Source of the DNA: Rikenellaceae bacterium
GTDB lineage: Bacteria > Bacteroidota > Bacteroidia > Bacteroidales > Rikenellaceae
NCBI GenBank assembly: GCA_015060065.1
Contig: SUZF01000007.1
Coordinates: 29,787 to 93,786, forward strand
Length of the DNA: 64,000 nt
Reading direction: 5' to 3'
A program made the position numbers and the translations under genes. Positions 2,237-38,991 of the stretch are shown piece by piece. The notes beneath the pieces were generated by a model. That model searched no databases. It was not told the DNA's origin and saw nothing but the letters and a program-made list of their open reading frames with translations. Every line of letters begins with the position of its first letter. Position 1 is the stretch's first letter.

Positions 2237-3847
2237 TTAGTGCTTAAAGTCTGCAAAAAAATCGTTGCCCTTGTCATCTACGATGATGAATGCGGGGAAG
2301 TTCTCGACGTAAATCTTGCGTACAGCCTCCATGCCGAGTTCGGGGAAATCCACCACCTCGACCGACTTAATCGAGTTCTTTGCCAAGACTGCTGCCGGGC
2401 CACCAATCGAGCCGAGGTAGAAGCCTCCGTTAGCCTTGCAGGCATCGGTAACCTCCTGCGAGCGGTTGCCCTTTGCAACCATCACCATCGAGCCTCCGTT
2501 CTTCTGGAACAAATCAACGTAGGGGTCCATACGACCTGCTGTCGTGGGGCCAAACGAGCCTGATGCCATACCTGCCGGAGTCTTTGCCGGACCCGCGTAA
2601 TATACGGGGTGCTTCTTGAAGTATTCGGGCATAGGCTTGCCTTCGTCAAGCATCTTCTTAATCTGTGCGTGTGCAATATCGCGAGCAACGATGAGCGTAC
2701 CCTTCAAGTTCAGACGAGTCTTGATGGGGTACTTCGTCAGAATTGCGCGAACTTTGTCCATACCCTCATCGAGGTCGATATCCACTGCGGGCGACATCGC
2801 GGGAGCCTCTGCCGGCAGGAAACGAGCCGGATTCTTCTCCAACTGCTCGATGAAGATTCCTTCGGGGGTAATCTTTGCCTTGATGTTGCGGTCAGCCGAG
2901 CAACTTACACCGATAGCCACGGGGCAAGAAGCAGCATGACGCGGAGCGCGGATTACGCGAACATCATGAACGAGGTATTTGCCGCCAAACTGCGCACCTA
3001 CACCGCTCTTCTGGCAAATCTCCTGAATCTTTGCCTCCCACTCCAAGTCGCGGAAGCAACGACCACCCTCATTGCCCGATGTGGGCAGATGGTCGAGGTA
3101 TCCTGCCGAAGCCTTCTTGACCGTTGCCAAGCACATCTCTGCCGATGTTCCACCGATGCAGACTGCGAGGTGGTAGGGCGGACAAGCCGATGTGCCGAGG
3201 TCTTTGATATGCTCTGTGATAAACTTGGTGAGAGACTCCTCGTTCAGAAGAGCCTTGGTCTGCTGATAGAGGAAGGTCTTGTTTGCCGAGCCGCCACCCT
3301 TGGTGATGAAGAGGAATTTGTACTCGTTGCCCTTGGTGGCGTAGAGGTCAATTTGTGCCGGCAGGTTCGTGCCGGAGTTCTTCTCGTCGAACATGGTGTA
3401 GGGGACAACCTGCGAGTAGCGAAGATTGCGCTCGTTGTAGGTATCATAGACACCGCGAGTGATGTACTCGGCATCATCAACGCCGGTATAGACATCCTCG
3501 CCCTTCTTGCCGATACAGATTGCCGTACCGGTATCCTGACAGGTCGGCAACTCGCCTTCGGCTGCGACACACTGATTCAGCAACATCGTGTAAGCCACGA
3601 ACTTGTCGTTATCGGTGGCTTCGGGGTCTTTGAGAATGTTGCTCAATTTTTCGAGGTGCGAAGCACGCAGATAGAACGAAACATCGCCGTATGCCTCCTT
3701 TGCCAGAAGTTCAAGACCCTTTGGGTCCACCTTCAAAATTTGACGGCCGTCACACTCCACGACCTTTACGTACTCCTTGGTCAAAAGGCGATATTCGGTA
3801 GTATCTGCCTCGATAGGAAAGGGTTCCTGATAGATAAATTCTGCCAT
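2237..3847 (-). CDS. fumarate hydratase class I
   Basis: 536 aa with class I fumarase signatures ([77 protein letters not shown]). Confidence 0.93.
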
Positions 3848-37094: not shown

Positions 37095-37391
37095 ATGGCA
37101 AAAGAGTCAATGAAGGCACGCGAGGTTAAGCGTGCAAAGCTCGCACAGCGTTACGCTCACAAGCGTGAGGAGATCGCAGCGAAGGTAAAGAGCGGCGAAA
37201 TGGACCACGAGGAGGCTTGGATTGCTCTCTCGAAACTCCCCCGCAACTCGAATCCCATTCGTCAGCACAACCGCTGTATGCTTACGGGTCGTCCCAAGGG
37301 TTATATCCGCCAGTTCGGTATCAGCCGTATCCAGTTCCGCGAGATGGCTTCGAACGGCCTTATCCCGGGCGTGAAGAAGGCAAGCTGGTAG
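37095..37391 (+). CDS. rpsN: 30S ribosomal protein S14 (Cys-less type)
   Basis: [25 protein letters not shown]...[38 protein letters not shown]; no CxxC pairs. Confidence 0.97.
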
Positions 37392-37420
37392 TCGTTACAA
37401 AACGATAACAACTTTCAAAA

Positions 37421-37454
37421 AGATGTGTTCCTTTCGAGGAGCACATCTTTTTTT
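37421..37454 (+). terminator. strong intrinsic terminator directly after rpsN
   Basis: agatgtgttcct-ttcg-aggagcacatct (12-bp stem, one G-U) plus ttttttt. Confidence 0.9.
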
Positions 37455-37768
37455 GGTCAAAAATCGTTCTGATTGGCTCTTTTTGAGCCTTGCTGGCAAC
37501 TGTCGCTTTTCGAAAAAGGCAACGCAAAACCTCTCTTTTCGCACCTTTTAGAAAAAAGGTGCCCAAAACCTTTCGACCGAAACTGCGTTTCGGGGAGTTT
37601 GACAGTATAGATTTTTGTTTTTTGGTTTTATCGCGAGGGTTTGGTTGTCTGCGACAATAACACAAAACAACAATGGTAGCAGTCTGTAAGTAAACTTACA
37701 CTGCCACCATTATTATTTTGCACTATCCTTACGGATAGCCACAACCCCTCGAAAGAGCCAAAAATATC

Positions 37769-37872
37769 AAAGAGGCTGTCTAACAAGTCTTCAAAAATGG
37801 AAATCACCCTCGTCAGATGTACTTCCGGCAGGGGTGAAATCGCTAAAATTGGACTTGTTAGACAGCCTCTTT
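37769..37872. repeat. 104-bp MITE-like element with 21-bp perfect inverted ends
   Basis: aaagaggctgtctaacaagtc (37769-37789) and gacttgttagacagcctcttt (37852-37872). Confidence 0.6.
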
Positions 37873-37890
37873 ATAATGGGATTAAAGGTA

Positions 37891-38040
37891 GTGAGAGGCA
37901 GTTAAGGACAGTAAAGACCGGCAAATCAATTCCCTTTAATTGCCCTAAACTCTCTAAACTCTAACTCCCTCTAACTCACTTTAACTCCCTTTAACTCCCT
38001 TTAACTGCCATTCTCTGTCATTCGTTGCCATTAGATGCCA
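37891..38040. repeat. 10-bp-phased degenerate repeat array with inverted left copies
   Basis: Right array 37961-38040 in exact decamers: ctaactccct ctaactcact ttaactccct ttaactccct ttaactgcca ttctctgtca ttcgttgcca ttagatgcca. Left, inverted: gtgagaggca gttaaggaca gtaaagaccg (37891-37920). Confidence 0.75.
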
Positions 38041-38284
38041 TTCAGCACCGTAGGTGCGCCTGCCATTATTAGTCGCACTTGACAGCCCCCATAAAAATCC
38101 AATGGCTAATGGACGATGACTTCGACCCCTCCGGTCTTCAACTATCTCCCCTAAATCGGGGAGCGAGCAGGAGGTATGGAGCAGCCGTTGAAGTTCGCTT
38201 TTGGGTTGCGAAATGTTTCGGCAGGTGGGGCGTTTTATCCGCCATTTGCTACAATCGCTTTTGTTGGGAAAATAATCGTAATTA

Positions 38285-38316
38285 TTTGTTTGTGTGAGAA
38301 ATAATATCTATATTTG
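38285..38316 (+). promoter_or_regulatory. promoter for rpsH-rplQ part of the spc/alpha cluster
   Basis: TTTG (38285-38288)-N20-TATATTTG (38309-38316). Confidence 0.65.
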
Positions 38317-38322
38317 CAGGCT

Positions 38323-38592
38323 CGAAAGAGTGTGAAAGTCGCAAGACGGACACGATGTAAACAACTTCCGGCAGCGTTAAGTAATTGATGCTGTTGGGGT
38401 TATGGGTGTAATACTATGCGGTATTGTCATCCAAAATCGGGGTGCCGACGAAGGAGTGAAGACTCTGAAATTGGAGGCCGATGGAGGGTGTGAGAGGTGG
38501 AGTATGACACTTGAAAGTTGCGAAATCGGGATGTTGAGCGACGGAAACGTAAACTAATTTAATTAATTTTTAACTTTTAATTCTTTACAGTT
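38323..38592 (+). promoter_or_regulatory. long 5' leader of rpsH
   Basis: About 270 nt of GC-richer non-coding sequence between the promoter and the rpsH ATG. Confidence 0.4.
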
Positions 38593-38991
38593 ATGACAGA
38601 TCCTATTGCGGACTTTTTAACGAGAATTAGAAACGCAGTGAAAGCCAACCACAAGGTGGTTGAAGCTCCTGGCTCAAAAATTAAGCAGGAAATCACTAAA
38701 ATTCTCTACGAGCAGGGATATATCCTTGCTTACAAGTTTGACAATGATGAGAAGGGTCACCCGATCATCAAGATTGCTCTCAAATGGGACGCAGCCACCA
38801 AGACTAACGCTATCAAGAACTTGAAGCGTGTCAGCCGTCCCGGTCTTCGTCAGTATGCTTCGGTAGCAGATATGCCCCGCGTGCTGAACGGTCTGGGTAT
38901 CGCAATCCTTTCGACCTCGAAGGGTATTATGACCGATGCCAAGGCTCGCAAGGAGAATGTAGGTGGTGAGGTATTGTGTTACATCTATTAA
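38593..38991 (+). CDS. rpsH: 30S ribosomal protein S8
   Basis: [44 protein letters not shown]. Confidence 0.98.

Follow-up and report, generated by a model that had tools for sequence, protein, structure and literature searches.

Organisation of the rpsN–rpsH region

The S10-spc-alpha cluster is the long ribosomal-protein operon of most bacteria and is among the most conserved bacterial gene orders. In the window (the 64,000 nt stretch of Rikenellaceae contig SUZF01000007.1 analysed here), rpsN and rpsH are separated by a gap of 1201 bp (37391 to 38593). Gene order, hairpin, spacer and promoter motif can be read directly from the DNA, and the features of the region are as follows.

37095–37391, + strand: rpsN (S14), with which the upstream half ends (ORF list; tblastn in relatives)
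37417–37454, + strand: intrinsic-terminator-like hairpin and T7 (16 nt arms, 94% complementary, TTCG loop)
37459–37485: start of a dispersed intergenic repeat (27 nt exact match at G000:C23)
37500–37765: dispersed repeat R1 (four long matches of 75–78% identity and two partial ones elsewhere in the genome)
37769–37872: MITE-like palindromic element with 21 bp perfect terminal inverted repeats
37959–38008: 10 bp tandem repeat (CTTTAACTCC-like units)
38099–38164: short dispersed repeat that forms a hairpin (CCCCTAAATCGGGGAG), with about 18 partial copies genome-wide
38285–38316, + strand: putative Bacteroidetes-type promoter, TTTG-N20-TATATTTG
38316–38405, + strand: structured 5′ part of the predicted rpsH leader (P1, 38320–38331; P2, 38338–38347; P3, 38363–38401)
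38406–38592, + strand: remainder of the leader, variable, ending in an AT-rich start region (AATTTTTAACTTTTAATTC)
38593–38991, + strand: rpsH (S8), with which the downstream half begins (ORF list)

There is no convincing gene among the ORFs of the window's gap, the longest of which (101 aa) is antisense and overlaps the putative rpsN terminator, and a gene hidden in the spacer was rejected on these grounds.

Hairpin following rpsN

The hairpin AAAAAGATGTGTTCCT-TTCG-AGGAGCACATCTTTTT (37417–37452) lies 25 nt past the end of rpsN and runs into a T7 tract, so that a stable hairpin followed by a U-run stands right past the gene end, as in an intrinsic terminator. The first 90 nt 3′ of rpsN have a folding z-score of −4.9. 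This agrees with the terminator that the initial annotation had placed within 30 nt of rpsN, and termination at this site is predicted from the sequence together with the comparison of relatives. A simple terminator scanner did not list the hairpin at 37417–37454; pairing of its T-run with the 5′ A-run is the probable reason.

Strong folding directly 3′ of rpsN is a common property of Alistipes spacers (z < −2 in 20 of 24; mean z −3.6), whereas deeper in the spacers folding is weak (z < −2 in 3–6 of 21–24; mean z −0.5 to −0.9). Compared by eye, the hairpins themselves vary widely in sequence between genomes and show little conservation. In many of them no clear T-run can be seen, which leaves room for weak termination and read-through in some cases. 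The T7 tract is found again in L056, and a hairpin-plus-T terminator is kept behind rpsN in the inspected genomes with separated halves.

Behind rpsN in L034, L044, L045, L048 and others, strong hairpins stand without a T-run, which suggests that a T-run is perhaps not always needed for termination in Alistipes. In two other Rikenellaceae loci (L059 and L060) the 112 bp rpsN–rpsH spacer is largely one long hairpin, an arm of which holds the −7 promoter element, so that terminator-like hairpin and promoter overlap.

Putative promoter of the rpsH half

The consensus of Bacteroidetes housekeeping promoters is TAnnTTTG at −7, with TTTG near −33 (PMC7366714). Both elements are present at 38285–38316, about 280 nt upstream of rpsH, and transcription of the rpsH half would be expected to start at about 38322. 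A new promoter with a long leader had been proposed from the window alone, and the motif and a predicted leader of about 270 nt bear this out. A simple promoter scan was uninformative here, as it uses a sigma-70 model, to which promoters of Bacteroidetes do not conform.

Upstream regions of rpsH in relatives carry the same signals. TAnnTTTG occurs in all 63 distinct regions against 11 expected (shuffled sequences: mean 11, maximum 14 of 63), and the −33 element in 46 of 63 against 3.8 expected. The regions also share a conserved block around TTGG...AAATAATGCGTATATTTGCGCGCTT.

Gap width and separation of the halves in relatives

S8 and S14 were searched in 150 genomes of the family. In the genus of the window the rpsN–rpsH gap has a median of about 718 bp and ranges from 228 to 1342 bp (n = 56 genomes), the 1201 bp of the window being the second longest; in the other genera it is mostly 30–830 bp, with complete separation in some. 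Among named genomes the gap is 228–1945 bp in Alistipes compared with about 12–208 bp in other Bacteroidota, and with a slightly different definition of the ends the medians are 751 and 68 bp. Nearly all other junctions tested are tight in all groups (S5-L15 contains rpmD).

The spacer comparison proposed in the initial annotation thus found a long gap throughout the genus and a tight one in other Bacteroidota. That annotation had described a 1.2 kb insert breaking the operon in this genome, a description that does not hold: "insert" is a misnomer because the relatives also have a long spacer here, and a genome-specific insert is rejected by the same gene order and long spacer in 56 genomes of the genus. 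The split is genus-wide and is also present in other Rikenellaceae genera. The difference in gap width between the genus and other Bacteroidota suggests that it arose no later than the base of the genus.

In several relatives the halves have moved apart altogether. The gene rpsH follows rpoC in L054 (G138), recO in L055 (G137) and a glgP-like gene in L063 (G011) and L177. It lies beyond infC and behind an opposite-strand gene in L192 (G226), and is divergent from ybeY in L193 (G213) and from a polysaccharide gene in L171 (G013). A divergent neighbour implies that rpsH would need its own promoter there. The block S8-L6-L18-S5-L15-SecY remains together in L054, L055, L063 and L195. Most of the separated cases are fragmented MAGs, several of them with repeats at the junction, and may be misassembled; G013, from another genus, is a single 3.15 Mb contig free of that risk, and its rpsN and rpsH are 76.8 kb apart. 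When the genes around rpsN and rpsH in G013 and G011 were compared with those of congeners, neighbours were not matched or contigs were too short.

In L054, a tandem array of about 45 bp units (GGGTATCGAAAACGATACCTGTGTTGGTGTGGTGTCGCC...) occupies positions 2800–3700, between rpoC and rpsH. Directly after infC in G226 (L192:7237–7400) there is sequence like one end of the MITE-like element. The sizeable ORF that comes next runs in the opposite direction, which may mean that infC, too, is severed from rpmI-rplT in that genome.

Repeats in the spacer of the window

Copies of the spacer repeats were found by searching the spacer against the window's own genome. An inverted repeat pair of 21 bp, a 10 bp tandem repeat and many matches elsewhere in the genome were recovered, much as the initial annotation had depicted the gap. 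By eye, an 18 nt stretch of the repeat at 37459–37485 is also found upstream of rpsH in L055. The core of R1 (37634–37751) is an imperfect hairpin of about 118 nt whose stem covaries strongly between copies, with 14 pairs showing two-sided changes and 97% of cells paired (12 copies); it has no Rfam match. R1 is present in 7 of 180 genomes of the genus, with 1–8 matches per genome. Another site in the genome carries a partial, 79% identical copy of the MITE-like element. These dispersed repeats account for the gap of the window being the second longest in the genus, and it is the spacer's length and repeats alone, not the split, that are specific to the lineage of the window.

A candidate structured leader upstream of rpsH

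The first 90 nt of the predicted rpsH leader form a three-hairpin fold common to relatives. The distal leader of one relative (L031) contains additional units of about 34 nt. A covariance model of the leader (E ≤ 0.001) matched 9 of 180 genomes of the genus, once in each, and all nine matches lie directly upstream of rpsH, even in genomes with rpsN elsewhere. Conservation of the leader throughout the genus was rejected, as just these nine genomes match. Paired positions make up 92% of cells in the fold, compared with 32–48% when the fold is slid along the alignment. In P3, 96% of cells are paired and two pairs show two-sided changes, CG/UA (columns 66–77) and CG/AU (columns 61–82). No Rfam family matched the window at its gathering score, and the sub-threshold hits were just miRNA-like and snoRNA-like chance matches.

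The evidence for the structure is good for a small and related sample, within which a conserved structured RNA with covariation precedes a ribosomal gene, as expected of an r-leader. The RNA is a candidate autoregulatory leader, a function suggested only by its position. In the spc feedback of E. coli, S8 acts near rplE. In an operon split in this way, such control of rplE by S8 could not reach across. A tentative and rather doubtful suggestion is that 38316–38405 is a new r-leader, by means of which S8, or some other protein made from the half, would repress its own transcript and replace control of the E. coli type.

Two probable transcription units

Taken together, the comparisons make it very probable that the S10-spc-alpha cluster in the Alistipes lineage of the window comprises two transcription units. 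The upstream unit would end at the hairpin terminator just past rpsN, and the downstream unit, from rpsH to rplQ and including secY and rpoA, would be transcribed from its own housekeeping promoter at 38285–38316 with a leader of about 270 nt. The DNA between them would be a relaxed intergenic spacer that has gathered dispersed repeats. With each half autonomous, rearrangements could part the halves without loss of expression, as in several relatives. Separate transcription of S8 to L17, already put forward in the initial annotation, is strongly supported by the promoter motif in 63 of 63 regions, the folding after rpsN and the placement of rpsH beside unrelated or divergent genes.

Internal promoters are frequent in ribosomal operons, and the cluster could still yield a single transcript, with read-through past a leaky terminator supplying most of the rpsH mRNA and the promoter only adding to it. 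The many post-rpsN hairpins without a clear T-run would fit such an arrangement, but in L056, as in the window, the hairpin runs into a T7 tract, the rpsN hairpins of the separated genomes are alike in this respect, and rpsH stands alone in several genomes, where read-through is unnecessary. Read-through as the main source of rpsH mRNA is considered unlikely.

Far less probable is that a mobile element inserted in this genome alone and broke up an intact operon. The MITE-like palindrome and multi-copy repeats of the spacer would be its traces, yet a long spacer, the promoter and usually a hairpin are present in genomes across the genus, and the scarcity of R1 in the genus makes the split independent of that repeat. 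Insertion as an explanation of the split is refuted, although the extra length of the window's spacer may be its product. An assembly artefact is the least probable of these explanations: the genome is in 37 contigs and the spacer is rich in repeats, but identical gene order and a long spacer recur in 56 genomes of the genus. Two transcription units remain the preferred reading.

Comparison with known systems

In B. thetaiotaomicron the ribosomal operon BT_2700–BT_2731 is one transcript, among the longest of that species (PMC7366714). The gene order across the rpsN–rpsH region is alike in the two lineages, but the Alistipes cluster is interrupted at rpsN|rpsH, where a hairpin, spacer DNA and an additional putative promoter lie, and in some relatives the halves lie apart. 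The part consulted of a study of this cluster in Gammaproteobacteria and Bacilli (PMC8046335) deals with the movement of single genes, such as the exit from spc of rpsN in Leuconostocaceae and of secY in Bacillus selenitireducens, and that part does not describe a break at rpsN|rpsH or the Bacteroidetes. Both are cases of the evolutionary break-up of a conserved cluster; as far as that part of the study shows, single genes were moved or replaced in Bacilli, whereas in Alistipes the cluster appears divided into two long operons, always at the same place. No published rpsN/rpsH split in Alistipes was found in the open-access literature. The split is unusual, but operon break-up itself is known, and the candidate leader RNA, as yet unproven, is the newest part.

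Ribosomal leaders described in Bacteroidia include those of S4 (rpsD-rpoA-rplQ) and L13 (PMC7247131), and that survey mentions no uS8/rpsH leader. The candidate rpsH leader would likewise be a structured leader ahead of ribosomal genes in the Bacteroidia, but is narrow in distribution (nine genomes).

A genus with the cluster cut at a fixed point, and relatives in which the junction is tight, has spacers of 0.2–1.3 kb or has its halves tens of kb apart, makes it testable what keeps ribosomal operons together. It also makes testable how S8-type feedback survives once S8 leaves its classical target: as in E. coli, S8 would be encoded in the transcript that is controlled, but rplE, the E. coli target region, would lie in the other, upstream transcript in Alistipes.
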